DNA of 64,000 bases from NCBI GenBank assembly GCA_025766275.1, contig JAFKAC010000059.1, positions 294,030 through 358,029 on the forward strand, in the 5' to 3' direction. The translations under genes were made by a program, and so were the position numbers. The stretch comes from Lactarius indigo (taxonomy: Eukaryota > Basidiomycota > Agaricomycetes > Russulales > Russulaceae). The notes beneath the pieces were generated by a model. It saw only the letters and a program-made list of their open reading frames with translations, made no database searches and was not told the DNA's origin. Shown here piece by piece: positions 29,138 to 59,878 of the stretch. Numbering within the stretch: position 1 is the stretch's first letter; the number at the start of each line of letters is the position of its first letter.

Positions 29138-29139
29138 TT

Positions 29140-34239: not shown

Positions 34240-34269
34240 CAAGACGAACTATCTCCCCACCCATCAACA

Positions 34270-35400
34270 ATGTCCTCTCCTACTTCCCAACTCTTCTCTA
34301 CCTACAGTCACATCGTCGAAGAAGCAGCCGCCGTCGCACAACTATGGATTGCGGTTCGCACCGGAACGCACGATGAAGGAGACATCCCCACATTACGACA
34401 GATACTCCACCCAAATCTCTTCACCAGTTACGTCGAACCACCTCCGCCCACCATCGAAGAAATCCATCAAGACGCATGGATCAACACTCAGTTAGCGGGA
34501 GAACTTCCGTCCATTTCACCACTCCCCTCCGTTCCACGATCTCTAGTCCCCGATGACCATCCAGGCGAAGACTGGCATTTCAACCATCCCCATAGCAAGC
34601 GTTTCTATGACTTCAATATATCCGCCAGCGCCCGTCATCCAGTCCGCGCTAAGTATGTTAAGTATCAGCGGTTCGCACCCTACCCCACCATCTGCGGCAC
34701 TATGGGACGCAATCAGAACGTCTACGAAGAGTCCTTGAGGGCACCCAACGACAACCGAGGATATCCGGCGCTCAAACCTTATCAAATCCGCGTCTTCGAC
34801 CCAGATATGACGATGCGCGCCGACGTTGATCGTGCGCTCCATATCATGGATGATTGGCGAGTGCAAGCAGAAGTACAACGCTTCCGAACCATGACGGAAG
34901 ACCTTCAGAGCCAACACGACATTCTAGACAAGCTCAGAATAGAAATTGCCGGAACTATGGGGGAGATTAAGGACTCGGTAAAACGCCTCGGCCAAAATAA
35001 CGTCTACCACCGTCTCCAGCAGGTCATTCAAAACGAAAACGACCATCTCATGTGGGTGCCGAACGACGAAACTCGACAGCAGGTCCAAGAACATTTCCAG
35101 CAAATCGAAGAACAACATACCGAGTTCCTCTGTCGCTGGTGCCAACACACCACTCACAATACCGAAGATTGTACCATGTTCGTCCAGTGCACTCTCTGTA
35201 AGCGGTACGGCCACGCCGACGTCAAGTGCCATCAACCCCATCGCAAATGCCAGGATGAGTGCAAGGTGCCACGCACTCACCGTCTCTTCTCCAAGCCTTG
35301 TCGCTCGCGCCCCTTCAGTGAGGACCCCGCTGACGCCGTCCGTCGTCGTATGCAAGCCCGCGAAGATCGTCTCATCAGGCGGACCAATCAACGAGCCTAA
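34270..35400 (+). CDS. element C third ORF (ORF3): coiled coil plus two zinc knuckles
   Basis: 376 aa, starting 30 bp after the pol stop and ending 12 bp before the 3' LTR, the position of env in retroviruses. No signal peptide or membrane segment is seen. A conserved core (GTMGRNQNVYEESL, then IRVFDPDMTMRADVDRAL, then AEVQRFRTM) leads into a helical, probably coiled-coil segment. Two CX2CX4HX4C knuckles follow (CRWCQHTTHNTEDC, CTLCKRYGHADVKC), then a Cys/His-rich end. Homologous ORFs follow pol in element B (56549-57997) and, decayed, in element A (58730-59878). Function unknown; nucleic-acid binding is an inference from the knuckles. Confidence 0.88.
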   Translation: MSSPTSQLFSTYSHIVEEAAAVAQLWIAVRTGTHDEGDIPTLRQILHPNLFTSYVEPPPPTIEEIHQDAWINTQLAGELPSISPLPSVPRSLVPDDHPGEDWHFNHPHSKRFYDFNISASARHPVRAKYVKYQRFAPYPTICGTMGRNQNVYEESLRAPNDNRGYPALKPYQIRVFDPDMTMRADVDRALHIMDDWRVQAEVQRFRTMTEDLQSQHDILDKLRIEIAGTMGEIKDSVKRLGQNNVYHRLQQVIQNENDHLMWVPNDETRQQVQEHFQQIEEQHTEFLCRWCQHTTHNTEDCTMFVQCTLCKRYGHADVKCHQPHRKCQDECKVPRTHRLFSKPCRSRPFSEDPADAVRRRMQAREDRLIRRTNQRA

Positions 35401-35410
35401 AGGAGGGGGT
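35401..35410 (+). promoter_or_regulatory. polypurine tract of element C
   Basis: AGGAGGGGG just before the 3' LTR, the expected plus-strand primer. Similar tracts precede the 3' LTRs of A (59895-59905) and B (58021-58028). Confidence 0.8.
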
Positions 35411-35412
35411 GA

Positions 35413-35787
35413 TGTTACGCTACGTACTTTTCTCGTACCTTCTCGACTGTTTCTCGATCGTTCTCCGACGTCCTTCCAACTTGTTGACTCGCACTTTCTG
35501 TATGATTCGAAGGACGTTCTCGTAGTTTCCATATGACTCATACCAGTAGTACTTAAGGACCAACTTCCATGTACTAAGAGCTCTAAGCTCGACTTACTGT
35601 ATTCAACTGCAGTAACTTCTCGTATAAACATCTTTTGGCTTCACGAACCTGAACGATCGCTCGTCGTTGACTCGCGATTCCCTCTCATCTTGTGCATCAT
35701 CGCTCCGCCGTCTGATTGTCGGCATTACCCGAACTCCGATTCGATCTCCGACTCGAATCCGAACGATACGCCTTACTGCGCGTAACA
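35413..35787 (+). repeat. 3' LTR of element C
   Basis: 375 bp. No difference from the 5' LTR was found on direct comparison. Confidence 0.93.
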
Positions 35788-38416: not shown

Positions 38417-38949
38417 CATATTTCACTAGTTGTTTGACGCTTTTTGGATTCGTCTTATGTATAAACCCTTTCATATTTATACTTCATAAATAGTGTGGCG
38501 AAATATCTGTGATGCGAGTAGTATAGTGGCAAGTGTGAGTACATCCCACAATCCCAAACAAAGTTATCAATATCAGAGCCGAAACCATTGTACCCGGTAC
38601 CTCAACACTGCGCGCTGATGACCCATCCACACACGATCGTCTTAAAAATGGTGATCGGAGACCTATCGGTGAAGTGCAGTAGCAATTGGTTGGTAACCCA
38701 GTTAAGGAGTACGGAAAGGTCTCAAGCCAGACTCATACAGTGCTGATCGACTTATGCGAATAATGGAAACAACGCGGTCTCATAGAATTCTAGTCTGAAT
38801 GGCACATATGTTGTCTTCCTGGGACTAGTTTACTAACGCACACTCAGTACCGGTAGTCTGCAGAAAGTCCGTTCCAGAGCAGGTTACGGCGTTTACGAGG
38901 ACCCAGGGGTCAGAAAAGGAATATAGGTATTATTTTCTAGACGTGTTCC
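38417..38949. other. intergenic region, nothing recognised
   Basis: 0.5 kb between the DUF6535 gene and the CLC pseudogene, whose 3' ends face each other. An A-box-like TAGTATAGTGG at 38520-38530 has no B-box partner, so it is not called as a tRNA. Confidence 0.5.
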
Positions 38950-41940: not shown

Positions 41941-43201
41941 AATTCTTGGGCGCAGACGAGACCCTGGGTGAGACCCCCCTTCCATCTTTTCTGGCGAGGG
42001 AAGGGTCGGCTCGCAGTCAAGGTGATCTTCTCGCCATAAAGACGATGCAACAATGTGGTACATCATCTAGAGTTCCCTGCGATATTGGCAGTCTGCTGGG
42101 TCGGGTCTCCCGCTGCGATACCTTTCGGAGGCGACCCCGGTGCGGCACCTTCCCCGGAAATTCAGGCTACTGGGGGACTTATCACCGTTTCCTGGCCGCG
42201 CTCCACAATTCTATAAAACGTAGCCCCTTCATTTGATGCTGATCGAGTAGAGTACCCTAATTTATTCGGTGGTCAGATTTTTTTCTCAGCATCGAAATAA
42301 CGATGTACCAACTTGAGCGATTCGGGGACCTTGCTTGCGGGAGCTACTGGCCCTATCGACGTCGATTAATCAAGGTGGGTGGTTCGGAATAATAAACCGC
42401 AGCGAGTGAAATTATGTCTGGCACACCAGAAGAAACGTAAGATTCTAGTCATTGAACGAGTGTAAGACTACTTGCCTGGCACACCAGAAGAAACGTAAGA
42501 TTCTGGAGTGCCAGTGCGTACAATGCGCGAATAAATACTGCGTAAAGAGTGTGAATACACGTGAATACGTGCTCGGGCATAACGGGCATAGTTGTATAGT
42601 AAAAGTCTCAACCGAGAAAGCACAGGGGTTGTCCCCGATCACAGATTGGTTGTAACTAAGTCGTAAAGTAAAGTAAATAACAAATGAATGTGTTCCATAT
42701 GAGTCCATACATCTCGACTCTACTACCGTCACACCTCCAGGGTGTACTTCCATCCGCATGTGAGATGCGGCCGACTCCCGACGCCAAGGTTTCGCGCGCG
42801 TGAGCGCACTCTCCTTCAACACGGAAAGGCTACGGAACCAGGCGGAGGTCAAGCAGGCCGGCATGAGAAATGGGGAACAGCCTTTATTATTGCCACTAAG
42901 CGATCAGAAATGTGGAGAGTGCTGTAATTACCATGGGTCAGAAGAGCGTCGTAAGACAACACGGCGCAAATTGTTACCAAATTTGTAGCTTATTAGTTCA
43001 GTCCTTGCACACCGCGTTTAGGCAGCCCTCCTCAACCCCTCCTTGAGATCCTCGACCGCAGCTAACTTGGCGAGACACTTTGGTCCAGTGTGTTATCTTG
43101 GACTCCCACTGTTGTTCGTGTCACATATGTTCTCCATCTTCGTTAGCACGTCATGGCTTCACGCATCCGGCTCTGCTTTTCTATCATCGCATCGATGTAT
43201 G
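41941..43201. repeat. dispersed repeat, copy 2 (with a 437-bp insertion)
   Basis: Homologous to 13478-14288. It starts exactly where the CLC coding sequence stops and ends where the copia LTR begins. Relative to copy 1 it carries an extra segment at 42389-42825. Its version of the minus-strand ORF is riddled with stops and frameshifts. Confidence 0.8.
42389..42825. mobile_element. 437-bp insertion in repeat copy 2
   Basis: Copy 1 of the repeat has an uninterrupted GGTTCGGAAAGGCT at 13914-13927. In copy 2 the same sequence is split by 437 bp, with CGGA repeated at both ends (42385-42388 and 42822-42825). Inside is a direct repeat CTGGCACACCAGAAGAAACG at about 42419 and 42477. No terminal inverted repeats and no coding capacity are seen; it may be a small non-autonomous element. 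Confidence 0.5.
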
Positions 43202-43431: not shown

Positions 43432-43880
43432 TGTTGAGATTTCAGTGCATGCGAGGCCGGTGTGGCTCGCGTTGGCGATCATACCCTTATTTGACTGATT
43501 GATTTCCTTACGGTGATCTGAACTAATTTGTCGTCTCGTCTCGTCTCATTTAGTCACAGTCCATTTATATCCATGTGAATACGGTACTTTACGGTACTCC
43601 GCGTTTTTGGGCCTGCGCACTTATATACCACGTACGATATTTCCGTATGCCTCAGTAATCGCCTCTGCCCGCGATTCCTGAGGTAAGATAACTAGTTACT
43701 TTACTCCTATTGGTTTGCTTATGCCTAGACAGTCTTACTTGTTCGTCTAGGTGAATATACCTTAGTAATCGCCTCTGCCCGCGATTCCTGAGTCTTACTT
43801 GTTCGTCTAGTGCTTTCCGCACCCAGTTCGCCTTCATGCGTGTGTTCCGGTCCTTCACGTGGCTGCCATAACCTTCTACA
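43432..43880 (+). repeat. Ty1/copia-type 5' LTR
   Basis: 449 bp from TGTTGAG to TCTACA, followed directly by a primer-binding site at 43881. It contains internal direct repeats (GTAATCGCCTCTGCCCGCGA, and CTTACTTGTTCGTCTAG twice). It is tandem with the partial copy at 43202. Confidence 0.7.
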
Positions 43881-43894
43881 GGTTATGGGCCCTG
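43881..43894 (+). promoter_or_regulatory. half-tRNA initiator-Met primer-binding site
   Basis: GGTTATGGGCCCTG is complementary, with one mismatch, to the anticodon arm of initiator methionine tRNA (CAGGGCTCATAACC in yeast). This is the half-tRNA priming used by copia and Ty5-like elements. Confidence 0.65.
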
Positions 43895-43943
43895 CCGAGC
43901 GTCGCTAGGCCAGCTTGCATATATCATTGCTGCTTTATCCATT

Positions 43944-44746
43944 ATGTCTACTGCGTCTCCTGCCCAACCACCTGCCCCTCCTGCTGCCGCTGGGGCGTCC
44001 AATCCTCCAGCTGCCGGATCGTCTTCTGCCTCTGCACCACCTCCACCTCCTGCTCCCACTCCAGTCATAGAACAGCTCCCCACCAACATCCCACGCCTCG
44101 AGCCCGATGGTTCTAACTGGGCGATATTTGCTGTGCGCTTCCAGGAAGCGATGCAGGCGAGTCGCTGGTGGGGCTTCTTTGATGGAAAGGTCCAGCGTCC
44201 CATTCCAGCGGATCCGGACAACATCACAGCAGCTGAAACGGAGGCCATCGTCAAGTGGGATTATGACGATCTCGTCGCGCGATATCTCCTTTCGCAGCGT
44301 CTTCCCGATTCCACGGCAGTGCGCATGGGCACCGTTCCGACGGCGCAGTTATGTTGGCTCCGCGTCAATGATGAATTCACCGCGAAGAGCGTTTACACGC
44401 AGAACGACCTCGAGACCACTTTCTTCGAGATGCGTTGTGCAAAGGGTGGCGACGTTCGCACCTTCCTGACTAGTCTGCGCTACAAGCGCGAGGAACTTGC
44501 GGCCGCAGGAGTCCACATTACTATGAGGGACTACCAGCGGACAGTGCTCAAGGGGATCCCGGAGGAGCTCGCTCGTTTCGCTTCGAGCATCCTGTCCTCC
44601 GCGCGGCTCGTTCACGGCTTCTCATCCATTGACACAGAGTCCCTAATTGACCACATCTGTGAGGAGACCGACCGGTTGAAGAACCGTCGGGCCAAGTCGC
44701 TTTCCAACGTGCTCGGGGCCAAGAGTCAGGCCGCCGAAGACAATGC
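43944..44746 (+). pseudogene. gag: Ty1/copia Gag, truncated by element A
   Basis: Open from the ATG at 43944 for about 268 codons until the LTR of element A begins at 44747. It has a Pro/Ala-rich N-terminus, then LEPDGSNWAIFAVRFQEAM, YLLSQRLPDSTAVRMG, LETTFFEMRCAKGGDVRTFL and VHITMRDYQRTVLKGIPEEL, the retrotransposon gag (UBN2-like) fold of copia elements. The zinc knuckle and all of pol are missing. The rest of the copia element is not found on the far side of element A. Confidence 0.85.
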
Positions 44747-45305
44747 TGTCACATTTCGACTCGGACTAATGTATGGACCCTTACTGTACCGGTTGTGGCT
44801 ACGGCGGTAAGGTAGATTAGTCACGGACTTACAGCCTTAGGCCTTTATGATGAGGGCGATAGGAGATGGTACGAGATTGCTGACTGAGGACATTACGCCA
44901 CTAATACTAGTAGTAGTAGTATTAGTGTCTGAGCTACTTACGCGACACGTTGGACACTACCTTACTACGACTCATAGCAGCGCTTCAAAGCCTGCTGGAT
45001 TTGTATTTAAGCCGCCTTGTGAAGACCAAGATACGCCATCTTGGTCTTCTTGAATCGTCACTCTATTCTCTTCTCTGTCTCATCCTCTCTCCCTTTCTCT
45101 CTCTCTCTCTCAGTACCTCTTGAAGCTAAAGTTCGCACTCGACTCCTGTTGCAGCCCAAGTACAAGTCAGCAAGTCTTGCCGGTGCACCTCTGAGTGTTC
45201 ACCTGGGCAAGAGCACGGACCTTCGCGTCGTTGTGCCAGGGTATTCACTAAGTTGTTATTGCCTCTATCGAGCTCAAGTTGAGCTAATGTCGTGACGACG
45301 TTACA
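44747..45305 (+). repeat. 5' LTR of element A
   Basis: 559 bp. TATTTAA (45004-45010) lies 34 bp before ATCTTGGTCTT (45038-45048), the complement of the primer-binding site. The same 11-mer also has an inverted partner AAGACCAAGAT at 45022-45032, forming a hairpin. A second hairpin with an 11-bp stem (CACTAATACTA ... TAGTATTAGTG) lies near 44890-44930. Confidence 0.9.
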
Positions 45306-45307
45306 TT

Positions 45308-45318
45308 AAGACCAAGAT
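45308..45318 (+). promoter_or_regulatory. self-primer binding site of element A
   Basis: AAGACCAAGAT begins 2 nt after the LTR and is perfectly complementary to 45038-45048 in the LTR. Confidence 0.75.
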
Positions 45319-45324
45319 CCCATC

Positions 45325-47391
45325 GTGGCCGTAACAACCAGAGACTGGTGGACGAGTTTCCGTCCCTATTCGCTCCCAAGACGAGGAGAATGCAACGTCC
45401 CCATGCGCTTTTTACAAGCTGCCAGTTGGAGGGAAAGGCAAGAAGAAACCAGATATTTCGTGGAGTTTAATGGACCTAGCAGGTTCCGGCCAGTTGAGTT
45501 CGACTTCAACCATCTGTGTTGGACAGAAGTTACGTGGAATCCCATAGAAGCGCACTGGGACATCATCAGACCAGCAGGACCAAGGTATCGCTGTGACATC
45601 GACGCGCGAGAACTCAATAGTAGGGCGGATTGGGGCCCTATTGACAGACAATTACAAGAGCATACCACTGGAGAAGCAGTGTCAGAAGAGACCGGTGAAG
45701 CCGAACAAGATCAAGAAAGCGGCAATGAAGAAAGCGAAGGAAGGGAACCAGAGCAAACGGAAAGCAGTGGAGGAGCGATACAAGATCTCCTCATCAAACG
45801 AGCTGAGTCCGCACATATTACAGAGCCAGAACCGATTCACATTCGATTGCCAGCCATCATGGCAACCCTAACTCAGGCCATGGAAGAAGTCGCACTAGAA
45901 GAGTCGCGCGCAATACGAGCAGAGGCAAGGGAAATACTCATGCCTATCAACCCAGAGACGGGGCGGCGAATGACGATTGACGACGCCGCAATATTTCGAG
46001 CCATAGGATCCGACAGAGGAGACCCACCATCGGGGCGGCCTCTCACACTGGAACTGCCACCAGGAATAGGAGGCCCAAGTGGTGACCCACCGCCACCACC
46101 CGACGGGGGAATCCCCTTTGACATAAGAAGAACCAAACCACCACAAGGACCGCCTACAGGACCTCCAGGAGGAGGCGGTGGAGGCAGTGGAGGCAGTGGA
46201 GGAGGGGATGCCAGAGGAGGAGGACACCATAGCGAGAAACTCACCGGCGAGCCACCCTCCATTTTTGACGGAGACAGACTTAAAGTGGATCAATTTCTGA
46301 CACAGTGGCATGTCTACTGGGGGATGAACCTCGACGCCCCCATCATGCGAAATGATTATAGGAGATGCCTCCTATTCCTATCTTACATCAAAGGAGGAGC
46401 CGTCAGTGAATGGGTTTTATCCTTCCTGAACTGGCTCAATTGGCAAATACAACGAGGCGTTAGTCCCTACACGAGAGCTCTATGGGACGCTGTGGCCGAT
46501 GGCTTCAGCCAACAGTTTGAAAACACACTAGAACGAGAACAAGCACAAGCCATACTAAGAAAGGGCTTCAAAATGACAGGAGAAGACATTGATAAGTACA
46601 TCAATGATTTCGAACAGTTGGCACGGAAGGCTCATTACCGCCTCAACGAACCACAAACCATTGACCTCTTTACGTCGGGGTTGCCCAAGGAACTGTTCAA
46701 GAACGTATTCCAATTTGACGATCCAGTCACATTCGATGATTGGAAGAGGGCCGTCCTCAAGAGGCAGAAAAACTATATACACCTCAAAGCCAGACTCAAT
46801 GAGTACAAGAATACGACGACACAGCCGAAGAAACAGAGTGGCAATGCAGGATGGGCGCTCCCGCAAAACCTGCCCCAGACAAATCCTTGGGCAATGGACA
46901 CATCAGCGGACCACGCTAAAGTACGACTTGCGGGCTCCGAAGACATCGACTTCAACAAACTGCCCCACACGTGGTCCCCTCCCCCATTTCCACCAAGGGG
47001 AGGGCCTGGAGCTAGAGGACAGGGAAGGGGGGGATCCCGAAGAGACCTAAGGAATGTCCTCTGTTATAACTGCAACGCACCAGGACATCTCTCACGAAAT
47101 TGTCCATACCTGCAACCGCAGAGACACTGGTTGAATGCCCCCTCCAGTAGCAGAATGACTGAGACCACGTGGCACCCTCAAGGGCCCGTATCGCAATACG
47201 AACCGTCGCTGGCGGGACACATGTCCCCAGCACCTAGCGTAACACCAATGCCCCAGATTAACGTGGCAAGCACAAAGACGGCAGGAGAACAAGCGAAGGA
47301 GTGGCTTACACAAGTAGCCAACAGTACGGATGAAGTAAAGGACCTCATCCTTCAAGATTTGTGGGGAAAGGAGGGTTTTCGGGATGCCTGA
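45325..47391 (+). CDS. gag: element A Gag
   Basis: Unbroken frame of 688 codons from a GTG at 45325; an in-frame TAA sits just upstream and the first ATG is near 45403. It contains an acidic Glu-rich segment, a Pro/Gly-rich hinge, a gag capsid domain (SIFDGDRLKVDQFLTQWHVY, RCLLFLSYIKGG, LERE-QAQAIL, DIDKYINDFEQLARKAHY) and a zinc knuckle CYNCNAPGHLSRNC. It is the only fully open ORF left in element A. Pol follows in the -1 frame with overlapping open frames. Confidence 0.88.
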   Translation: MAVTTRDWWTSFRPYSLPRRGECNVPMRFLQAASWRERQEETRYFVEFNGPSRFRPVEFDFNHLCWTEVTWNPIEAHWDIIRPAGPRYRCDIDARELNSRADWGPIDRQLQEHTTGEAVSEETGEAEQDQESGNEESEGREPEQTESSGGAIQDLLIKRAESAHITEPEPIHIRLPAIMATLTQAMEEVALEESRAIRAEAREILMPINPETGRRMTIDDAAIFRAIGSDRGDPPSGRPLTLELPPGIGGPSGDPPPPPDGGIPFDIRRTKPPQGPPTGPPGGGGGGSGGSGGGDARGGGHHSEKLTGEPPSIFDGDRLKVDQFLTQWHVYWGMNLDAPIMRNDYRRCLLFLSYIKGGAVSEWVLSFLNWLNWQIQRGVSPYTRALWDAVADGFSQQFENTLEREQAQAILRKGFKMTGEDIDKYINDFEQLARKAHYRLNEPQTIDLFTSGLPKELFKNVFQFDDPVTFDDWKRAVLKRQKNYIHLKARLNEYKNTTTQPKKQSGNAGWALPQNLPQTNPWAMDTSADHAKVRLAGSEDIDFNKLPHTWSPPPFPPRGGPGARGQGRGGSRRDLRNVLCYNCNAPGHLSRNCPYLQPQRHWLNAPSSSRMTETTWHPQGPVSQYEPSLAGHMSPAPSVTPMPQINVASTKTAGEQAKEWLTQVANSTDEVKDLILQDLWGKEGFRDA

Positions 47392-50300
47392 ACCTGTCAG
47401 TCTGGGTGAGGGCTCTTCAATGTAATTCTGTAATTGTGACAATGTGCTATCGATCTATGCGAATTCCAGTAGCTGTCCACACGAATTACCAAACGACTGA
47501 AACAAAAGCGCTGGTTGACTCTGGAGCAACCGACAACTTCATCCGGCCTAGTTTAGTGGCACGGGCCGGCGTCCTGGTGCAGCAACTAGGCACACCTTGC
47601 AAGATATGGAACATAGATAACACGGAAAACAAAGCTGGGTTGATCACTCATTACGTTAACCTAGAAGTAAAAACACAAGGACAGATAAAACGAATGACCT
47701 TCCTGGTCACTGACCTTGGAAGCGAAGACATGGTGCTGGGCTATCCATGGCTGAGCGCCTTCGAGCCGACTATTAGCTGGGCTACGGCAACCGTACACCC
47801 CGACATGCAACTGGTAGTGCTGGCAACCACCGAAGAATTACTTTCGTCAACCACGATCCAGGCACTAATCATTGCCGAAAAAGAAGCTATTGTGCAAGAC
47901 CTGGAAGAAGAAACTTTCACGAGAGCTACCACCTCGATGGAGTTGGCCATACAGGCGAAACAACAACAGACGGCGGCCGTGCTCCCCTCTGAGTACACCA
48001 TGTTTAGCAAGCTATTCAGCGAGCAAGCCTCGCACTGCTTTCCCCCGGCAAGGCCATGGGATCACGCAATAGATTTCAAACCATCCGCGCCAGCCACCAT
48101 AGACTGCAAGATATACCCCATGACACAGAAAGAAGAAAGCGAACTCAGGGAGTTCCTAGATGAGAAGCTAAAACAGGGGTATTTACACCCCTCCATCTCC
48201 CCGTACGCGTCCTCCTTTTTCTTCATTAAAAAGAAGGACGGAAAACTGCGCCCAGTACAGGATTACCGTGTAATCAACTCCCACACCATCCGCAACCAGT
48301 ACCCACTCCCACTCATTCAGGACCTCATCCTTGACCTCAGCAACGCCCATATCTACACAAAACTCGACATTCGCTGGGGCTACAACAATATACGGATTCG
48401 CGATGGCGACCAGGAAAAGGCAGCGTTCAAGACCAAATTCGGCCTTTTCGAACCAACGGTCATGTTCTTTGGCCTCACGAACTCCCCCACAACCTTCCAG
48501 GCGATGATGAACCATATTTACCGCGACACAATAGCAAAGCACGAGCGCCTAGGCACCACGATACGTGTTTACATGGATGATATCGGAATCGCCACTCACT
48601 TTGAACATGACTTAACAGCCCATGTCGCTGCAGTGCAAGACGTCTTGCGTGTCGCGCAAGAGCACGACCTCTACTTCAAACTGGAGAAATGCCTGTTCCA
48701 TCAATCGCGCATGGATTACCTGGGGGTAATCCTTGAAAGGGGGGTGACTTGAATGGACCCTGTAAAAGTTCAGGGAATCAAAGATTGGCCAACGCCGACG
48801 AAGGTCAAAGACGTCAGATCCTTCCTTGGCTTCTGCAACTTTTACCGACTCTTCATACGCAGCTTCGCAACTCACACCAAACCACTTACCAAATTAACAC
48901 GAAAAGACGAAGAATGGCGGTGGACAGAGGAAGAGGACAAGGCATTTAACAAACTGAAGAGCCTTGTTACAGAAGAGCCAGTATTAGCACACCCCGTCCT
49001 CCAAGACCCATTTGAGCTGGAGGTCGACGCCTCGGGCTACGTGGTGGGAGCCGTGTTACTACAGAAGAAAACTGATGGAAAGCGACACCCCATAGGCTAC
49101 TACTCAGCAACGCTCTCCGAAGCAGAACGAAATTACGACATTTACGACCTAGAATTGCTTGCTATTGTCAAAGCCCTACGGAACTGGAGGCCACTGCTTG
49201 CTGGAGCCCCACACAAAATCAAAATCTATTCGGACCACTTAAACCTACAGTATTGGAAGTCGCCACAGAAGATCAGCAGGTGGGTTGCCAGAAGAGCTGA
49301 TGCATTGTCACGCCGACCTGACTACAACCAGGGGGCAGAAGACAACAGCGAAGTCGTGGTATTACCACCTGAAGTCTTCGTCAGGGTCCTTAATACGGCA
49401 TGAACGCTGACTCTTAACCCAAACCTAATGCAGCCACGACATCAACAAGACGAAGAGGTAATCAAGGTGTGGGTAGACCCCCACCAGCTGAAGAAAATAC
49501 AAGGGGAGTGGTACAAGGACAGCAGGTTCGTGATAACAGGACCAGCGTCGACGCATCGCATACTGATCCATGACCACCACAACTTACCTATACATGGGCA
49601 TCCCAGAATTGCAAGGACGCAATGAATTCTGGAAAGACATTACTGGTGGCCGCGACTGCGAAAGGATGTGTATGAGTACGTTCAAGGATGCGCTGAGTGC
49701 CAGCGAAACAAAGTCAACACGCGCCCCATACAAGCAGCTTTACACCCCATTACACCAATACTCGACGCCACCCCTTTTCAGACCGTGGCAGTGGACTTTA
49801 TCACCAAGCTGCCGGAGTCAAAGGGGTGCAACAGCATCCTCACCGTCACGGACCACGATTGTAGCAAGGCTTCGGTGTTCATACCATGTAGGGAAGAAAT
49901 AACAGCAGAGGAAACCGCGGCACTGTACGTCACGCACATCTTTAAACGATTCGGACTTCCGCGCAAAATCATCAGCGACCGAGACCCACGATTCACGTCC
50001 AAGTTCACAAGAGAGGCATGCCGAATCCTAGGGGTCCAGCAAAACATATCCATGGCATACCATCCGCGTACCGACGGACAATCAGAGAGAACTAACCAGT
50101 GGCTAGAACAGTACTTGTGCTTTTGGGTAAACGAGCGTCAAGATAACTGGACCACTTATCTGCCAATCGCAGAATTTGTGCACAACAACTGGCCCCATGA
50201 ACACACAAAACAATCGCCGTTCCAGCTTCTAATGGGATACGACCCACAAGCTGATTGGACGGATAAGCCCTCTCCTATTCCCCAAGTGACTGCGCGACTG

Positions 50301-50759
50301 ACGCAGCTGAAAGAGGCCAGAGATACCGCCCAACGCCTCATGAAAAAGGCACAAGAAGCATGGGTATGCAACAAAGATACGCCCAAGTTTCACGTCAATG
50401 ACCTCGTGTGGCTGGAAGGGAAATACCTCTGAACCAATCAACCCATGGCAAAATTAGCGGCGCGACACCACGGACCCTTTAGGATAACCCAGGTGATGTC
50501 GCCTTACAATTATCGATTGGAGCTTCCCATGCAGTGGAGCATACATCCAGTGTTCCACATTGATCTTCTCACCCCGTACAAACAAACTCCCTTACATGGG
50601 GAGAATTTCACGCGACCACCACCCGAACTGATCGATGGAGAAGAGGAATACAAAGTCGAGGCCATCCTAGACTCCTGGCACTTTGGCAGAGGAAGACGCC
50701 TTCAATACCTCGTGAAATGGAAGGGTTACCCAGACTCGGAGAACCAGTGGGTCAACAAG
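47361..50759 (+). pseudogene. pol: element A Pol, four in-frame TGA stops, then split by element B
   Basis: One continuous frame with protease LVDSGATDNFI, reverse transcriptase RWGYNNIRI and VYMDDIGIA, RNase H VDASGYVVGAVLL, integrase AECQRNK, DRDPRF and TDGQSERTNQ, and chromodomain YLVKWKGYPDSENQWV. It is interrupted only by TGA at 48750-48752, 49401-49403, 49623-49625 and 50430-50432; no frameshift is seen. A short in-frame deletion in RNase H (near 49280) joins SRWVAR to RADALSRR. The frame stops at 50759 where element B is inserted and resumes at 58598. Confidence 0.9.
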
Positions 50760-51320
50760 TGTTACGACTTTCTTGGACTCGTTTCTTTCCTTACCATTAT
50801 TCCCTTCCCACACCATACGAGCCCTGTACGACTACGCGGACTTTACGATTACCCGGTTTCTATCACGCGCCTGGCTTATCGACGTTCTCTTCTGATAAAG
50901 CTTGACATGTGCCAGTTTCCGACTTGTTACCTCTCACGCGTGACCCCGCGTGATTCCCCTTTGTTCTTGATATATCCCTACTTTGTTCCCTTTATGTCCA
51001 CTCCTTTCTCTCTCGATTTAGCGATGGCGCCATCTGTTTGTAATAGCCATACAGTACGATTTCTATTTAACCCTAGTCGCACCTAGCTTGTACGGTAGAC
51101 TAGACTTCTTGTGTAATACTACACTTGTCTACGCAAAGTCTCTCCAACCCTCGTTTTTGCTAGGCCTTCGAGTCTTAGCCTTCCTCTACAGTCCAAGTGA
51201 CTCACGTCCTTGTGACTCTTGTGCATCATCTCTACTGAAGTCGAGCCTTCGAGCTTTGACTACCGGACGATTGACTGACTTAGTACAGGTCGTACTCAAC
51301 GCCCCTGTAGTGGCGTTACA
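50760..51320 (+). repeat. 5' LTR of element B
   Basis: 561 bp. TATTTAA (51064-51070) lies 33 bp before AGACTAGACTT (51097-51107), the complement of the primer-binding site at 51323. Confidence 0.9.
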
Positions 51321-51322
51321 TT

Positions 51323-51333
51323 AAGTCTAGTCT
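51323..51333 (+). promoter_or_regulatory. self-primer binding site of element B
   Basis: AAGTCTAGTCT, 2 nt after the LTR, perfectly complementary to 51097-51107 in the LTR. Confidence 0.75.
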
Positions 51334-51338
51334 CCACT

Positions 51339-52965
51339 GTGGCTCTCACCAGCCGAAGCCGAACAAAGTTCGTCAAAGAGTACCTGGAACGGCATCCCTA
51401 CGACAACCTAAGACCTTCTATCAAAGGGACCGCTCTTTGGAGGAACACTCCACACGACGAAGGGTACTACATCTACGACCCCGATAAACTCACATACGAA
51501 CCAATCGAGTATATTGAAGATCAACACATTTGGGCCTACGTTGCCTACTCCGATTCAAAGCACTCCTGGTATTCCTATAAACCCGTTCCCGCACACCTAG
51601 GCCTAGGACCAGGAAAAGGACAAGTTAGCGCCATCGAGGCGGATTCCGACATCGAAGAACCATCCTCCAAACCCGACTTAGACAACCCAACACTTACGCC
51701 CACCATCCAACGACCTGTGGACTTCGCATCATATGCCAATATGTCCACCACCCAACTCTCCACCACCCTCACCTCCTCGCAACCAGCCGCAGGGTCCTCG
51801 ACAACGAATCCTGCAAGTAGTGGAGGATATCCTGTGGGAGGAAGTGTGTCAACAAGCGGAGGAGGCACTGCGGGAGGCGCAGGAAGCCATCATGGAGGCG
51901 GTGCGCCTGGAGGCGGAGGCAGCGCGCCTGGAGGTGGAGGCGGCGGAGCAGCAGCAGGTCCCGCCGCTGGAGGATTTCCCCCACCAAACGGACGACTCGG
52001 AGGGAATCCCCCACCAGAATTCACCGGAGATCGAGAAGCCAGCAGAGCTTTCCTAAACGCCTTCGCGCTCTACCGTGGAATGAACCCAAACGTCCAACAG
52101 TTGACCCTCCCTTATTCACACGCCTATGACCCTTCTCTTGTATATCCGAGGGCCACTAGTAGACGACTGGGTCGAAGAACAAATACAGTGGCTAGCCGAC
52201 CAATTGGCGGGAGGAGTAGCCATGAACGCCGAAAACCTATGGAACACTATCGAAACAAGGTTTATCCAGGCGTACACCGATACTACTCAACAACAAAAAG
52301 CTCGCCACGCTATTCAAAACCTACGAATGGACAAAGAAGACATCGACACCTATATAGCCAAGTTTTCTAACTTGGCCAACAAGGCAGGATACAACAAAGG
52401 ACGAGGCCACTACCCTGGAGATTTTCCAGAAAGGCCTCCCAAACACATCTAGTCATAAACGCGATAAAGTTCCACCACCCCGTAGACTGGGACGATTGGA
52501 AAACGGCGGTTACGCTCCAACAAGCGGAATACCTCCTACTCAAAGACAGACTCACCAAAGGAAGAACAGACAAAAAGGGAGGAGCATCCCGCGACCAATG
52601 GTTGAACGCTCTCAACAAAACCAGGGACCCAAACGCAATGGACGTCAGCCGAACCCGTGCTAGAGCAGCAATGACGGAAGACGAAAAGAAGCTACTCCAG
52701 AAGGAAGGAAGATGCTTCCGATGCCGAGGACAAGGACACATCTCCAGATTCTGTCCTCAAAAAACAACCACTACCGTCAAATCCGCAAATACGAACGACC
52801 CTACTCCAACCACCTGCTACTATCTCAATGACCGCGTCACGCCCCCTTTCCAACGAAGAACAAGCTGACGCCCAAGTAGCGGCCTTGTTCGCCCAAACCC
52901 CTGAAGTACGAGAACTAATGGTGGATAAACTCTTCGGACAAAAGAAGGATTTTCTGAACGCTTGA
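51339..52965 (+). pseudogene. gag: element B Gag, broken by frameshifts
   Basis: The first part (51339 to about 52115) is open from a GTG; the matching position in element A is also GTG. It includes a Gly-rich hinge and the start of the capsid domain (EFTGDREASRAFLNAFALYR). A frameshift near 52110 moves the frame to LLLYIRGPLVDDWVEEQIQW, another near 52400 to a frame with the zinc knuckle CFRCRGQGHISRFC, and a third near 52840 to the C-terminus ending DKLFGQKKDFLNA at 52965. At least three single-base shifts are needed to rejoin the frame. Confidence 0.85.
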
Positions 52966-55900
52966 ACCCGGCGGCCTGGGCTAGAGCATTAAAACTTAGC
53001 GTGTACAATAGCAGATTCCGATCTATGCGAATTCCAGTACTTTTCAAATCTGCTCACGCGACTGGCCGAACGAAACGTTTTGGTAGACTCAGGCGCAACA
53101 GACAACTTTCATAAGCGCAAATCTCCTGAAGCGACTCAAAATAGCCTGGCTACCTACCGAACGCTCTATCAAAATATGGAACGTAGACGGAACCCACAAC
53201 CAAGGAGGAGAAATCACATCTTTTACCGACCTTACCGTCAAAACCGGAGGGAAGACCCAAAACCTTCGATTCCTTATCACAGACTTAGGAAACGACGAAG
53301 TCATACTGGGATATCCCTGGTTTACGGCTTTCGAACCTAAGTTCCACTGGCGAGATGCCACACTCGATGAAGAATTCCAACCAGTGGTTATCACCAGTCT
53401 GCATTTGTCCGACTGAAGCCATGCCTCTTGAAGCAACTATCAAGGCATTGGAGACGTATCAACTGGATGAATCAGCCTGGGAACAGCTACAAGAAGAAGA
53501 CGAACCTTGTATCCGGCTGCGAAAAACGACAACAGCATCAGAGTTAGGCAGCAGCAAGGAAGCAGCCAAAGAGCCCCAGAAAACCTTCGAAGAAATGGTC
53601 CCGAAAGAATATCGGAGGCATCAGAAAGTTTTCAGTGAGGAAGCGTCCCAGCGCTTTCCTCCTTCGCGCCCGTGGGATCACGCCATCGATCTAGTCCCAA
53701 CCGCCCCTGAAACAATGGATTGCAAGATATACCCACTCACAATCCCGGAAAACGAAAAACTAACAGAATTCGTAACCGAACACCTGGAAAAGAAGTACAT
53801 CCAGCCATCCAAGTCTCCTTACGCATCTCCCTTCTTTTTCATCAAAAAGAAGGACGGGAAGCTACGCCCGGTACAGGACTATCGCCGCCTCAATGAACTA
53901 ACCATAAAGAACCACTATCCACTTCCCCTAATCCCCGAACTTATCGACAAGATCCGAGAAGCAAGGCTTTACTCGAAGCTTGATATCCGATGGGGATACA
54001 ACAATGTTCGAATCAAACAAGGGGACGAATGGAAGGCGGCGTTCAAGACAAATCAGGGGTTATTCGAACCGCGAGTCATGTTCTTTGGCCTCACTAACTC
54101 CCCTAGCACCTTCCAAACCATGATGGACACTATCTTCCGGGAGTTAGTGCTGACAGGAGAAGTAATCGTCTACATGGACGACATCTTGATTGCAACCGCA
54201 GACGACCACACCCACCACAGAATGGTACTACACCAAGTTCCTCGATCTTTGCGACAAACACGACCTATACATCAAACCGGAAAAATGCGTGTTTGAAGTC
54301 TATGAGGTGGAATACCTAGGACTAATCATTGGGCACGGACAACTGCGAATGGACCCAGTCAAAGTGCAAGGAGTCCGAGACTGGAAGGCGCCCACATCAC
54401 TCAAAGAAGTACGAGCCTTCTTGGGATTCTGCAATTTCTACTGGCGGTTTATACGGGGGTTCTCTACGATCGCGAGGCCCCTCCACGACCTTACGAAGAA
54501 AGACGTCCCTGGGAATGGACGGAAGCCAAACAAAAGGCCTTCGACACCATCAAAGAGCGGATCTGTTCGGAACCGGTCCTGCTATTCCCGAAACTAGATC
54601 AGCCCTTCGAAATTGAAGTCGACGCTTCAAGTTACGCCCTAGGGGCTGTCCTAAATCAGAAGGGAGAAGACAACAAGATGCACCCGGTCGCATTCTACTC
54701 CGAATCCCTATCAGAGGCCGAACGCAACTACGACATTTACGACAGGGAACTACTAGCGATCGTTAAAGCATTACGCACCTGGCGAACATATCTCGTAGGG
54801 ATCTCCCCATCTAATAACGATCCATACAGACCACGCCAACCTGCAATACTGGAAGGAACCTAGAAAAATCAGTCGACGAGTAGCGCGGGAGTTCCAAGAA
54901 CTGTCGGAGTACAACTTTATGCTCAAACATATCCCTGGTACCAAGAATACACAAGCAGACTCTTTATCGAGAAGATCTGATTACGATGACGGCACCGGCG
55001 ACAATGATCACGTCACAGTACTCCCAGACGACGTATTTCTCAAAGTCACCCAAACGTCCATGCATGACATGGACATATGGACTCAAATTGCACAAAACAT
55101 GGACGAAGCAGCACTCCTCCCGTGGATAGAACCCCACAACCTAAAGAAACACGATGGGCTGTGGTGGAAGGGCGACGCTCTCGTTGTCGTGGGAAACAAC
55201 GAACTTAAACGGGGGGTAATCACCTTCTTCCACGATACTCCAAGCGCGGGACACCCGGGAATCGCAAACACTCTAGAGCTATTACGACGTGATTTCTGGT
55301 GGCCCTAACATGCGCAAAGACGTGGAAGCCTACGTCAAGGGGTGCGCAACGTGCCAAAGCAACAAGATCAACCATCACCGACAGAAGCCCCACTTATTCC
55401 CTATCACTACCGAACCGTCAGCTGAACCGTTCGAAGTAGTAGCCATGGACTTCATAGTCAAACTCCCGATTATCAAAAGGGTTTGACTCAATCCTCACCG
55501 TCACGGACCACGAACTGCTCGAAAGCGGCAATATTCATACCGTGTAATGAAGCCATAACGTCGGAAGGCGTGGCAAAGCTTTATCTCCGACATGTCTATC
55601 CCCACTACGGCCTACCCCGAAGGATCATATCCGATCAGGGATCCAAGATTCACGTCTACGTTCATGCGACAACTGTGTAAAACGTTGGGGATACAGCAAA
55701 ACGTATCATCAGCGTATCACCCGCAAACAGATGGTCAATCAGAACGAACAAACCAATGGCTTAGAACAATATTTGCGACATTGGTGTAACGTGCAACAGG
55801 ATAATTGGGTGGAACTTCTACCCATGGCGCAATTCGCTCACAATTCTTGGAGAAACGCCACCACCAGGCACTCCCCCTTCTCTCTTATCATGGGGTGGGA

Positions 55901-56508
55901 ACCACGAACTGCGTGGACACCAAAACCATCACACAACCCCACAGGTGGATCAAAGACTGGAAGAGTTACAGATACTCCGGCAACATGCGCAAGATAGTAT
56001 CAAACACACGCAACACCTCATGGCCCAACGAGGGAAAACAGGATTCACACCTTATCAGCAAGGGGATCAAGTATGGCTAGAAGGGACCAATCTCCGCACC
56101 TTCTACCCCACAAGCAAACTAGCCCCAAAGCGGTACGGACCTTTTAAAATCGTCAAGGTTCTATCAGACGTTTCGTACGAACTGGAACTTCCGGCATCAT
56201 GGAAAATACACCCAGTGTTCCACGCGAACCTTCTGACGCCATACAAGGAAACGGAGATGCACGGCGCAAACTATACCCGACCTCCACCGGACCTTGTTGA
56301 TGGAGAAGAGGAGTATGAAGTGGAGCAGATCGAAGACGCCCAGGAACAAGGAAGAGGGCGCAAACTCCACTACCTAGTAAAGTGGAAGGGATTCCCATCA
56401 AGCGATAACACATGGGAACCCGCAACAAACATGACCCACGCCACAGACGTCATCAAAGACTTCTACCGACGATATCCGACCGCCAAGGGGGCTGGACGAA
56501 CGATATAA
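52966..56508 (+). pseudogene. pol: element B Pol, broken by about ten frameshifts
   Basis: All Pol domains are recognisable in shifting frames: protease (VDSGATDNF, near 53080), reverse transcriptase (RWGYNNVRI and VYMDDILIA, 53355-54296), RNase H (VDASSYALGAVLNQ near 54620, NYDIYDRELLAIV near 54730), integrase (KGCATCQSNK near 55335, a DDE block at 55483-55800), and chromodomain LHYLVKWKGFPSSDNTWEP (56370-56420). The frame changes near 53110, 54240, 54515, 54800, 55305, 55485, 55640, 55755 and 55940. Most changes are +1 and fall at short homopolymers. Confidence 0.88.
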
Positions 56509-56548
56509 AGACACCCCTCTCGCATCCCCACATCCCTCAGCCCCAAAG

Positions 56549-57997
56549 ATGACCGACACACCAGTATCCGACACCACCCTCGTCAACATCCTCAGCAACC
56601 CTCAACTCGAAGCCGCCCTCGAACGAGGGATTGTCACCATCAATCTCACTGACACCCCCCATCTGTCACCACCACCGTCCCCCCAACATGTCCCCATCGT
56701 CGCCCCCATTCCCATCGAACGAGAACCTGGGGAACTTACCCCGTCAACACCGGAGGAAGGGCAATACTCTCCAACCCCACCTCCTCAGCAACAGTCGACC
56801 CCTCCACCCGAGCCACAACCTCAGTCACCACCATCCTCCCCATCATCTACACCACCCCCGCCTCTAGAACCGTTTACCCCGGTTCGCGTCCATACCCCCA
56901 TTGACTACGACCGACCCGATTCCCCTCCTAACGACACAGACGACCCCGGGGCCCCATTTTTTCCAAACACTCCTGGCACTCCCAAGTACTACCCATTACA
57001 GATCCCACTACCGGACGGGGGATCTAACCCAGCGAAGTACATCTACTATCGCAAGGGATTCACCGAGGTAGTGGGGACAATGGGTGGGGGACAACCCCAT
57101 TACGGAGAGGAGGTCTACCTCTCGTCACTTAGGCCGAACGTCTCGGCGCCACCTTTTACAGCGGAACAACTACAGTTCTTTGACCCTCACGATATCTGCG
57201 CCTGCGCCCTGGACGAGACACTCATAGAGCTTAACTCACCTCGCCTCACGGCCGAAATCACTAGGCTGAGGACAGGACTTTTGGCGCTTAAAGAACTTGA
57301 CGAGAAGTGCGAGAAGCTGGAGGAGGACGCACGCAAGCTACGAGCGGAACGGCTCACGGTCGACTTGATGTTGGCCAGCGCCAAAAGGCGCCTTCAGTAC
57401 GCAGGGGCGCTAGCTACCATCGGCAACGAATACGCGCGTATGACGGCCCTACCAGCCCCACTTCGTCATTCCCGGTATGCCATCCCATTTTCCCCACAAC
57501 GCGGAGGACCACTAGAGTTTCCCCGCCTCGCCGATAAACCCCACCGCCGACGTTGCTATCACTGCAACAGTCCCCACCACATCGTACGCGATTGTCCCAC
57601 CAGACCGCGACCGGCCTGCCGACATTGCCAAAGCCAGGAACATCAGTCCCACCGATGTATATTCCGCCGTGCAGGCATGGTCGAAGAAGTAATCACGACT
57701 CATCAGGCAGAGGAGCGCATACGACAAGCAGTGGCTATGGAGGCCACCACCTCCTTTACCGTCCCCGAACCACCGACGATCGCGGCCCACACCCAAGGGA
57801 GGTGGTGTGGGCGGTGTTTCCGCACTGACGCTAATCACGACGAAATTCGGTGCCCACAGTACGAAATGTGTCGTAAGTGTGGAAAACGCGGACCCTTCCT
57901 CTTCCTCAAGACGCATTACTGTCGACTCGACATCTCTCCGTGGCCAGAAAATGACCTCAATGCTGACATCTACAACCTCATAGATCCGGAGTCCTGA
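56549..57997 (+). CDS. element B third ORF (ORF3), intact, multiple zinc knuckles
   Basis: 482 aa, starting 41 bp after the pol stop and ending 24 bp before the polypurine tract. It has a Pro/Ser-rich N-terminus, then the conserved core shared with element C (VVGTMGGGQPHYGEEVYLSS, LQFFDPHDICACALDETL, LTAEITRLRTGL), and a Lys/Glu/Leu-rich coiled-coil segment (KELDEKCEKLEEDARKLRAE). At least three CCHC knuckles follow: CYHCNSPHHIVRDC, CRHCQSQEHQSHRC, and the CGRC...H...C and CRKC pairs near the end. It is open although gag and pol of the same element are not. Function unknown. Confidence 0.88.
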   Translation: MTDTPVSDTTLVNILSNPQLEAALERGIVTINLTDTPHLSPPPSPQHVPIVAPIPIEREPGELTPSTPEEGQYSPTPPPQQQSTPPPEPQPQSPPSSPSSTPPPPLEPFTPVRVHTPIDYDRPDSPPNDTDDPGAPFFPNTPGTPKYYPLQIPLPDGGSNPAKYIYYRKGFTEVVGTMGGGQPHYGEEVYLSSLRPNVSAPPFTAEQLQFFDPHDICACALDETLIELNSPRLTAEITRLRTGLLALKELDEKCEKLEEDARKLRAERLTVDLMLASAKRRLQYAGALATIGNEYARMTALPAPLRHSRYAIPFSPQRGGPLEFPRLADKPHRRRCYHCNSPHHIVRDCPTRPRPACRHCQSQEHQSHRCIFRRAGMVEEVITTHQAEERIRQAVAMEATTSFTVPEPPTIAAHTQGRWCGRCFRTDANHDEIRCPQYEMCRKCGKRGPFLFLKTHYCRLDISPWPENDLNADIYNLIDPES

Positions 57998-58031
57998 AGT
58001 CGAGGCGTCTTCAGACCAAGACGGGGGGTAA

Positions 58032-58592
58032 TGTTACGATTTTCTTGGACTCGTTTCTTTCCTTACCATTATTTCCTTCCCACATCATACGAGCCCTGTA
58101 CGACTACGCGGACTTTACGATTACCCGGTTTCTATCACGCGCCTGGCTTATCGACGTTCTCTTCTGATAAAGCTTGACATGTGCCGGTTTCCGACTTGTT
58201 ACCTCTCACGCGCGACCCCGCGTGATTCCCCTTTGTTCTTGATATATCCCTACTTTGTTCCCTTTATGTCCACTCCTTTCTCTCTCGATTTAGCAATGGC
58301 GCCATCTGTTTGTAATAGCCATACAGTACGATTTCTATTTAACCCTAGTCGCACCTAGCTTGTACGGTAGACTAGACTTCTTGTGTAATACTACACTTGT
58401 CTACGCAAAGTCTCTCCGACCCTCGTTTTTGCTAGGCCTTCGAGTCTTAGCCTTCCTCTACAGTCCAAGTGACTCACGTCCTTGTGACTCTTGTGCATCA
58501 TCTCTACTGAAGTCGAGCCTTCGAGCTTTGACTACCGGACGATTGACTGACTTAGTACAGGTCGTACTCAACGCCCCTGTAGTGGCATTACA
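58032..58592 (+). repeat. 3' LTR of element B
   Basis: 561 bp; eight transitions relative to the 5' LTR. Confidence 0.92.
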
Positions 58593-58597
58593 ACAAG

Positions 58598-59878
58598 GAT
58601 GACGTCTTCGCACCAGAGGCACTTCGCCTGTATCAGGAAACACAGACGCACGCGAACACAGTTAAAACGAGCAGTGCGAAGACCGAAGGAAGTCATCCCC
58701 TTTTCCTTCGCTCTATCACCACTCATCGTATGCCTACCTCTCCATTGCGACATGTCACACAAGCGCAGCTCCTCGACTCCCTCGCAGAGGACGCCCGCGC
58801 CCTTTTGGCTGAGGACGACGACACCGAAGTACCAAGCACTCAGCTTGCGCCATGGACACCTCTTGCACCAGCAGAGGGGCCCATCACCGCACAAGAGTGG
58901 ATCAATGTTGTCACCAGATTCCCCAATCCAACAACCACCCCTGACGACGACCGAGCCATCGTCCATGTCTTCTGAAATGAGCAAGGCGAGCGAGAACCCA
59001 TCGCTGCCATCCCCCCAAGCGACAACCTCATTGGTGTTCGCGGAGTTTTCCCGAGCAACGACCAGCGTTCAAGCGCTGATGGAGTACAAGTTGGAGGGGT
59101 GGAGGAGAATAGCAGCGGAGTGGCAGAAGGAACAACTCGACTCAGCAGCAGCCTGACTGAGGGAGATGCGCGAGCAATGGCAGCGATGGCGGCAGCTGAG
59201 GCTGGCCATGACGATGAAGATTATTACCCGGCAAGACACCCCTTCCTTCGAATGAAATGTGACCCTGATAATCCCAGCATCACACCCTGGCTCGTCTACT
59301 CCGATGGGTCCCCCATGTATTGAGGACATGTGCGTGTGCCTGGCGCCACCGATCACCGTCCGTTCACCGCCACTAAAGATCCCGCACACGTCATTGTGCC
59401 TGAAGGGTTCCGGGCGAACAGAAGACCCCATTACATTCGATACCCCATCACCGGACCCGACGGAGTAGAAAGGGACGTGTCGCACGTCCAGATCATCGGA
59501 GGGGCGGACCCTCTGATTCTGGGAGTTATACCGGGCTCGCCACACGTTTATGGTAAGCCTTTCTACGCACTGCCGCACGTGTCAGCGGCGCTCCGCCCTA
59601 CGTACCCGCATGAGGACCTCGTCATCTTCGAGGCGGACCGGATCACTGACCGTGTGCTCAACTGCATCAACGACGAGTCGCTCACTGCAGAGGTCACGCG
59701 CTTCTGCGCGGCTAGCCATGAGCTAGACCGACTCCGAGCCAGGGTGAGCCAACTCCGTGCGATGATTGAGTGCGCACAAGATGACAGGCGTGACTCCATT
59801 TACCGACTGGAGCGCGCCACGGCGCTCGAGCGCATTGCCGATGAACAACGGGACTGGCCGGCAAGGGACTTTCGGTGA
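58598..59878 (+). pseudogene. element A: end of Pol and decayed third ORF
   Basis: Directly after the target duplication, the frame continues from pol (DDVFAPEALRLYQE) and runs without a stop into a third-ORF-like sequence from the ATG at 58730 (MPTSPLRHVTQAQLLDSLAE) to the stop at 59878. Only two in-frame stops interrupt it, both TGA (58973-58975, 59321-59323). The C-terminal half matches the ORF3 core of elements B and C: GVIPGSPHVYGKPFYAL, LVIFEADRITDRVLNCINDE, LTAEVTRFCAASHELDRLRA. Unlike B and C, it ends without zinc knuckles. Confidence 0.75.

Follow-up and report, generated by a model that had tools for sequence, protein, structure and literature searches.

A conserved third coding region at the 3′ end of Ty3/gypsy chromoviruses in Lactarius indigo, fused to Pol in some families and separate in others

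Introduction

Why would long terminal repeat (LTR) retrotransposons, for which Gag and Pol are considered enough to transpose (PMC7264820), keep a further gene? The question is raised by a 64,000-nucleotide (nt) stretch of the Lactarius indigo genome (assembly GCA_025766275.1, contig JAFKAC010000059.1, positions 294,030 to 358,029 of the forward strand; hereafter the window), in which three Ty3/gypsy elements, C (28763–35787), A (44744–60466) and B (50760–58592), each carry an open reading frame (ORF) between pol and the 3′ LTR, here called ORF3. An original prediction held that the three ORFs are homologous, that they were retained while the rest of the elements diverged, and that they may encode an accessory protein in a group usually described as gag-pol only. 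Exceptions to that description are in print, namely a figure legend marking an additional ORF ('add. ORF') of unknown function in fungal chromoviruses (PMC2864245) and a single sentence on a fungal chromovirus clade with additional genes (PMC2774666); here and below, statements about published work refer to the accessible parts of the papers cited.

Homology and purifying selection, both read from the genome, establish ORF3 as a true gene module, carried at the 3′ end by a set of Ty3/gypsy chromoviruses comprising five families, A to E. We favour an explanation in which this module encodes an accessory protein of the element's ribonucleoprotein or of a nuclear step, is delivered in two ways, and is overlapped in family A by a second coding frame; to this explanation as a whole we assign a probability of about 0.55.

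Results

ORF3 is homologous across five families

The three ORFs in the window are as follows.

34270–35400, plus strand: ORF3 of C, 376 amino acids (aa); core at about residues 95–250, CCHC zinc knuckles at residues 288 and 307
56549–57997, plus strand: ORF3 of B, 482 aa; proline-rich N-terminus, core at about residues 131–305, knuckles at residues 336 and 357, plus two looser ones at 420 and 441
58730–59878, plus strand: ORF3 of A, broken into 58730–58975 and 59330–59878

The frames of C and B are intact and that of A is decayed, as had been predicted. Their homology is borne out both by BLASTP (E-values of 2e-12 for C–B, 2e-6 for C–A and 1e-6 for B–A) and by profile–profile comparison with hhalign, which, using alignments of each family's copies within this genome as inputs, returned probabilities of 95.8% for B–C (E 8e-9), 91.8% for B–A (E 7.5e-7) and 83.1% for C–A (E 9e-6). 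Searches across the 90.3-Mb assembly (291 contigs) revealed two further families with the ORF3 core: D, reached from one weak match of C ORF3, and E, reached from D, the two being 51–53% identical in alignment. The D/E profile matched those of B and C at 95.3% and 94.8% and that of A at only 36.2%, so A is linked to the group via B and C. Over 33 ORF3 sequences, eight columns are invariant (I117, A127, Y152, F176, L190, R204, R206 and R239 in C numbering) and four more nearly so (P166, D187, A200 and L240), confirming that the proposed core motif is real. Chance similarity is rejected, and homology places the core in an ancestor that preceded the divergence of families A–E.

The module is abundant. 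With C ORF3 as query, at least 96 matches were obtained at E 0.001 (109 of 905 candidates scored); those listed comprise 35 C-type rows, fragments included, at 66–100% identity, and 61 weaker rows at 25–34%, mostly copies of B. The search with B ORF3 gave at least 88 matches (88 of 1726 scored), each spanning residues 1–481 or more, and that with the A tail at least 150 (150 of 1656 scored), each spanning residues 3–181 or more. In one respect the original prediction was turned around: it had the rest of these elements strongly diverged, whereas pol is 45% identical in aligned parts between C and A, 46% between C and B and 56% between A and B (the latter two over the C-terminal part), against 19–25% for the ORF3s of other families compared with C. 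By these identities ORF3 changes faster than pol between families, yet it is constrained inside them.

Outside this genome, none of 1425 candidate proteins was matched by C ORF3; the 33-sequence profile found 1 of 7354 proteins (P0003) and the Pol tail of A 1 of 7989 scored (P0004), both from L. indigo itself, and viral contigs, in which 30 and 40 stretches fitted a pattern, gave no tblastn match. Repeats are commonly masked in fungal annotation, and because these searches also need shared words, the null result is no proof that the module is restricted to one species.

ORF3 is under purifying selection

Selection was measured in copies with both frames, ORF3 and the pol end, intact. The pooled ratio of nonsynonymous to synonymous differences (pN/pS) in B was 0.066 for ORF3 versus 0.059 for the pol end (18 copies, 153 pairs), and in C 0.096 for ORF3 versus 0.043 for pol (5 copies, 10 pairs); the median pairwise ratio of substitution rates (dN/dS) of ORF3 was 0.048 and 0.056, respectively, clearly away from 1, and the conservation extends to other copies. 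As controls, two other sense and two antisense frames of the same DNA gave pN/pS of 1.5–6.1, and the third antisense frame, which shares wobble positions with ORF3, gave 0.119 in B and 0.168 in C. By segment, pN/pS in B was 0.141 at the N-terminus, 0.055 in the core, 0.035 in the knuckles and 0.046 in the rest; in C it was 0.131 at the N-terminus, 0.082 in the core, 0.053 in the knuckles and 0.129 at the end. Values for D and E were 0.140 and 0.151 (three copies each), and in five copies of A the core stood at 0.079, the part before it at 0.353 and the linker at 0.376. ORF3 was free of stops in 25 of the 30 B loci read.

Several properties of this sample count against taking the ratios at face value: choosing open copies strips nonsense changes, the copies are related by descent and not independent, and C contributes five copies, of which three hardly differ, with some of its pairs approaching saturation (dS >1). 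Within families, the counts nevertheless show strong purifying selection on ORF3, about as strict as on pol, and the retention that the original prediction had suggested is upheld to that extent.

The first 25 codons of B ORF3 (56549–56623) vary less at third positions than other 25-codon blocks (0.078 vs 0.138–0.308, 24 copies), which is perhaps a cis signal. Separately, the internal stops listed for ORF3 copies across the genome are mostly TGA, as expected from C-to-T change at CGA; mutational defence or methylation decay possibly accounts for the excess.

ORF3 is a C-terminal part of Pol in A, D and E and separate in B and C

How ORF3 relates to pol can be followed from the layout of the three elements.

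28763–29137, plus strand: 5′ LTR of C (375 bp); both LTRs 99.7% identical over 380 columns (blastn)
29066–30913, plus strand: gag frame of C (Retrotrans_gag, zf-CCHC); the listed frame opens within the LTR, so its start is putative
30982–34239, plus strand: pol of C, with protease, reverse transcriptase (RT), RNase H, integrase and chromodomain (Pfam scan)
35413–35787, plus strand: 3′ LTR of C (blastn of element ends)
44744–45305, plus strand: 5′ LTR of A, 97.0% identical to the 3′ LTR of A
45325–47391, plus strand: gag frame of A (zf-CCHC; Retrotrans_gag weak)
47361–50759, plus strand: pol of A, broken by stops and running to the chromodomain, where B is inserted (Pfam, reading of the sequence)
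50760–51320, plus strand: 5′ LTR of B, nested in A; 5-bp target duplication ACAAG
55945–56508, plus strand: pol end of B (integrase C-terminus, chromodomain), with domains named from copy L032
58032–58592, plus strand: 3′ LTR of B, 98.6% identical to the 5′ LTR of B
59905–60466, plus strand: 3′ LTR of A (blastn of element ends)

All three have the paired LTRs (97.0–99.7% identical) around gag and pol that mark Ty3/gypsy elements, B lying within the chromodomain end of A. The order protease–RT–RNase H–integrase–chromodomain is complete in C and in the A copy L061; for B, the scan covered the integrase–chromodomain end of copy L032. The B frame at 51339–52370 had no Pfam match, whereas a gag domain was found in C and, weakly, in A. 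A target duplication, GGTGC, directly precedes the 5′ LTR of C (28758–28762, flanks read); in the flanks of A none was seen, while B and C each have one.

Across the genome, 75 of the 150 scored copies of the A tail sit in open frames of at least 1500 aa, and copy L061 reads without a stop from protease through RT, RNase H, integrase and chromodomain into ORF3. Open frames holding ORF3 reach 2135 aa in D and 2127 aa in E, and the pieces read run into ORF3 from integrase in one D copy (L062) and from the chromodomain end in one E copy (L069). Judged from these frames, the ORF3 region of A, D and E is the in-frame C-terminus of Pol. In B and C, at the loci where the upstream frame is open as far as the end of pol, a stop and roughly 30–42 nt instead part pol from ORF3, so that the predicted separate ORF holds for B and C but not for A, nor for D and E.

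At these B and C loci the spacer differs in length from copy to copy, and the offset between pol and ORF3 falls in all three frames. Since the pol end and ORF3 both stay open while the spacer drifts, in-frame stop-codon readthrough is ruled out as the general route to ORF3 in these families. Splicing to an acceptor just before the ORF3 ATG was also rejected, as no AG is conserved in the B and C spacers by eye.

The fusions invite the view that ORF3 is primarily a C-terminal domain of Pol, a cofactor of integrase or chromodomain by which the integration complex is guided or stabilised, with fusion as the original state and B and C as split forms. Its position behind the chromodomain in A, D and E would fit, as would the presence of the core, unlike the knuckles, in all five families. 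Against this, B and C hold ORF3 apart across a drifting spacer, and in A an ATG is retained at the start of ORF3, behind a linker with little conservation (pN 0.20); we regard a primarily Pol-borne role as unlikely, though it deserves serious attention.

At three loci (L062 on C46, C237:442111-445002 and C226:348409-351936), a same-strand gag region, recognised by eye at L062, lies within about 0.6 kb after ORF3, and P0004 as annotated combines a chromodomain with ORF3 and gag (Pfam PF00385 and PF03732). The gag that follows ORF3 at these loci looks like the product of tandem elements sharing an LTR.

A second frame overlaps ORF3 in family A

About two thirds of A ORF3 overlap an ORF in the +1 frame, truncated in the window.

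58752–59156, plus strand: +1-frame overlapping ORF of A; it ends early here, at 134 codons vs 236–256 in 8 of 10 other copies read

The frame begins at an ATG 22 nt past the ORF3 start (MPTSPLRHV), and the eight copies with a long frame include L081, a copy of the diverged form A2; in L080, which is another A2 copy and has a damaged core, it is open across the conserved stretch by eye. At position −3, all ten A copies have a pyrimidine before the ORF3 ATG and a G before the second ATG (by eye), an arrangement that suits leaky scanning.

When nine A copies are compared in pairs, all 36 pairs show less synonymous change in the ORF3 frame (frame 0) within the overlap than within the core (mean pS 0.207 vs 0.472), while pN is higher (0.068 vs 0.037). 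Over codons 101–200, the +1 frame has a pN of 0.053 and a pS of 0.159, a ratio of 0.34, compared with 0.75 for frame 0 and 1.52 for +2; this constrained part is a basic segment of helical appearance by eye. Between A and A2, 54–57% of +1 residues are identical (three pairs), and the +1 score is 537 vs 174 ± 34 in 300 synonymous shuffles, a null that flatters the comparison because shuffling also strips shared ancestry.

Other observations pull in the opposite direction. In two copies, L078 and L102, the +1 frame is interrupted by a stop at codon 107 (numbering from the start of ORF3); the frame is neutral over codons 1–100 (1.07) and unconstrained over 201–245 (3.2), with single-pair ratios of 0.65–1.54 over its full length. 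Its length is weaker evidence, being reached by 58–306 of 5000 shuffles in five long-frame copies and by 1341 in L078.

Low synonymous change could also reflect a cis-acting RNA or DNA signal with no second protein. The concentration of the suppression in a limited stretch (codons 101–200), the stops in two of ten copies and the unremarkable frame length would all be compatible with such a signal; the codon periodicity of the variation in that stretch, which follows the +1 frame, and the retention of start, end and sequence identity in the diverged L081 are not readily explained by it, and we judge a signal of this kind to be unlikely. The statistics thus support a second protein-coding frame in A, which we presume to be expressed. 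No overprinting was found in B and C, apart from the low third-position variation at the start of B ORF3.

A candidate internal promoter precedes ORF3

A TATA motif lies near the pol end of C and B.

34218–34223, plus strand: TATAAA, candidate internal promoter of C ORF3, inside the coding end of pol, 52 nt before the ATG
56504–56509, plus strand: TATAAA across the stop codon of B pol, 45 nt before the ORF3 ATG

The hexamer falls in codons for Arg-Ile-Asn in C and includes the pol stop in B. In both families it is conserved at a fixed distance before the ATG: [TC]ATAA[AG] is present in 19 of 19 C-type loci examined (13 exact TATAAA) and in 30 of 30 B-type loci (25 exact). Among the C-type loci, L001–L003 are near-identical and L014 has its TATA at −67 because its match starts late; in four relatives at 66–74% ORF3 identity (L015, L017, L019 and L022) the Asn is replaced and ATAAA retained. 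The LTRs of C contain TATAAA, those of B do not.

D has TATAA[AG] in 13 of 13 further loci, ten of them with exact TATAAA 42 nt before ATGGA, and E in 7 of 7, at 45–51 nt before ATGGA in the four loci with both marks. Two facts weaken the case for a promoter. The hexamer of D and E also codes for Tyr-Lys at the chromodomain end, so that protein constraint could account for it. In addition, A and A2 have no TATA before ORF3, although the overlapping frame of A is the one that would most need a short mRNA. The Tyr codon of the D and E hexamer is TAT in all 20 loci. Six D/E sequences have seven other Tyr columns in common, of which none is all-TAT, one is TAT in all but one sequence and two are all-TAC. 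We consider the TATA at the pol end a candidate internal promoter for ORF3 of B and C.

Read together, these features may describe a compact 3′ region, with a TATA promoter giving a short mRNA for the knuckle protein, which would also exist as a Pol tail, and with two overlapping proteins in A. This picture is tentative, and we lean somewhat against its being right in every part.

A nucleic-acid-binding accessory protein is the leading interpretation

Knuckles of the form CX2CX4HX4C number two in C, with looser matches besides, two in B with two looser ones, and one plus one looser in each of D and E; A has none, so the predicted pattern for the window is confirmed. No Pfam family reached its cut-off in the ORF3s of A–E. 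The best match in profile comparison against solved structures was a retroviral nucleocapsid (E 0.0086), over the knuckle stretch only. In the first AlphaFold2 model of C, short strands (residues 129–155) and a helix (196–242) have a predicted local distance difference test (pLDDT) of about 64–85, the remainder being mostly lower. Foldseek found no match for this low-confidence model at E ≤0.001 in the Protein Data Bank or viral models, a result that carries no inference.

ORF3 is most likely an accessory protein that binds nucleic acid and belongs to the ribonucleoprotein of the element itself, acting at a step that we can only suggest. The accessory role foreseen by the original prediction is thus the leading interpretation, without the accompanying idea that ORF3 outlived a diverged remainder of the element. 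Caution comes from three sides: zf-CCHC (PF00098) scored 17.9 of the required 20.8 bits in B and was unmatched in C, A, D and E; the link to nucleic acids is made by the retroviral-type knuckles, of which A has none; and confidence in the structural models is low (pLDDT 58.5 with a predicted template modelling score (pTM) of 0.24, and pLDDT 48.4 with pTM 0.21).

Given that the best structural matches are retroviral Gag or nucleocapsid profiles and that B–E carry CCHC knuckles, ORF3 might be a second nucleocapsid, derived from a duplicated end of Gag. Yet ORF3 has no Pfam Gag match, whereas the gag frames of C and, weakly, A do; gag of A and C has a knuckle of its own, and the common core of ORF3 lies outside the knuckle part. 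Such an origin is quite improbable.

A role in countering host silencing, at the RNA or chromatin level, could keep the families active at high copy number; divergence between families faster than that of pol would fit an arms race, and the knuckles are of an RNA-binding type. Within families, however, ORF3 is constrained like pol, with no sign of positive selection in the counts, and the Pfam scan gave no match to a known suppressor, making this role improbable.

The position of ORF3, between pol and the 3′ LTR, would suit an envelope or cell-to-cell movement protein. No membrane segment was found in the five ORF3s of A–E (best 19-residue Kyte–Doolittle mean ≤1.17), in agreement with the original prediction, and the knuckles and the fusion to Pol in three families make such a function scarcely credible.

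In the explanation that we favour, the accessory protein would consist of the core, a long helix likely to oligomerise (to judge from a weak model) and, in B–E, zinc knuckles. In A, D and E the frames show it extending Pol at the C-terminus; in B and C it would be a product in its own right, probably from a short 3′ mRNA begun at the TATA. The RNA or cDNA of the element itself may be what the protein acts on, in the ribonucleoprotein or in a nuclear step, conceivably export, protection, packaging, delivery to integration or cDNA handling, for which the CERV protein discussed below serves as a model. In A, a second basic and probably helical protein would be made from the +1 frame, its ATG being reached by leaky scanning.

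Other features of the window

An ORF at 43872–44810, which we take to resemble a Ty1/copia-type gag, continues into the 5′ LTR of A; the site where A inserted may therefore have been a copia-like element. An RT fragment on the minus strand (60287–60940) adjoins the 3′ LTR of A, and part of it (60471–60890) makes up, with the RT of A itself (48236–48655), an inverted repeat at 82%. A repeat array with a spacing of 44 nt and multiples thereof occupies 61092–63045. A host-like repeat protein of 731 aa is encoded on the minus strand (14811–17006), its ORF containing 129-nt (43-codon) repeats at 15079–16796.

Discussion

That a region is kept with a dN/dS close to that of pol, in families that number at least 88 (B) and at least 150 (A) matches in one genome, implies that this lineage needs more than Gag and Pol. 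Were the 3′ region as compact as proposed, fungal Ty3/gypsy elements would possess retrovirus-like accessory genes without an envelope; the promoter and the overprinted gene would mean that they have reached the gene layout of complex retroviruses, and annotation based on gag and pol domains alone would miss such genes.

In the literature searched, the module, its selection, the TATA and the overlap are undescribed; as most subscription papers and all figures were inaccessible, they may have been noticed before. The accessible text of a fungal survey (PMC3248453) has no description of the module. The extra ORFs noted in fungal Ty3/gypsy elements (PMC2864245, PMC2774666) resemble ORF3 in kind, but those passages give no sequence or family by which to equate them with it.

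Bdelloid LTR elements (PMC5408684) and plant elements (PMC7264820) likewise have extra ORFs between pol and the 3′ LTR that are kept over copies or families. Unlike ORF3, these are enzymes, envelope-like or antisense, and none is described in the accessible text as a core with CCHC knuckles that belongs to Pol in some families and stands alone in others. Foamy viruses share with the arrangement proposed here a second promoter toward the 3′ end that serves accessory genes (PMC12789967); theirs, which has been shown experimentally, is located close to the 3′ end of env, whereas that of ORF3 is a conserved TATA at the pol end.

The nearest functional model in print appears to be CERV of Cer1, an LTR retrotransposon of Caenorhabditis elegans, which is needed for export of the genomic RNA (PMC10309623). 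Like ORF3, CERV is an extra element-encoded protein without obvious homologues; it is cysteine-rich, with a possible zinc finger and a leucine zipper, and is encoded partly in a frame other than that of the polyprotein (PMC10309623). The likeness is one of description: CERV is made from a spliced five-exon mRNA and its role in export has been shown (PMC10309623), whereas ORF3, known from sequence, has no conserved splice acceptor upstream (by eye).

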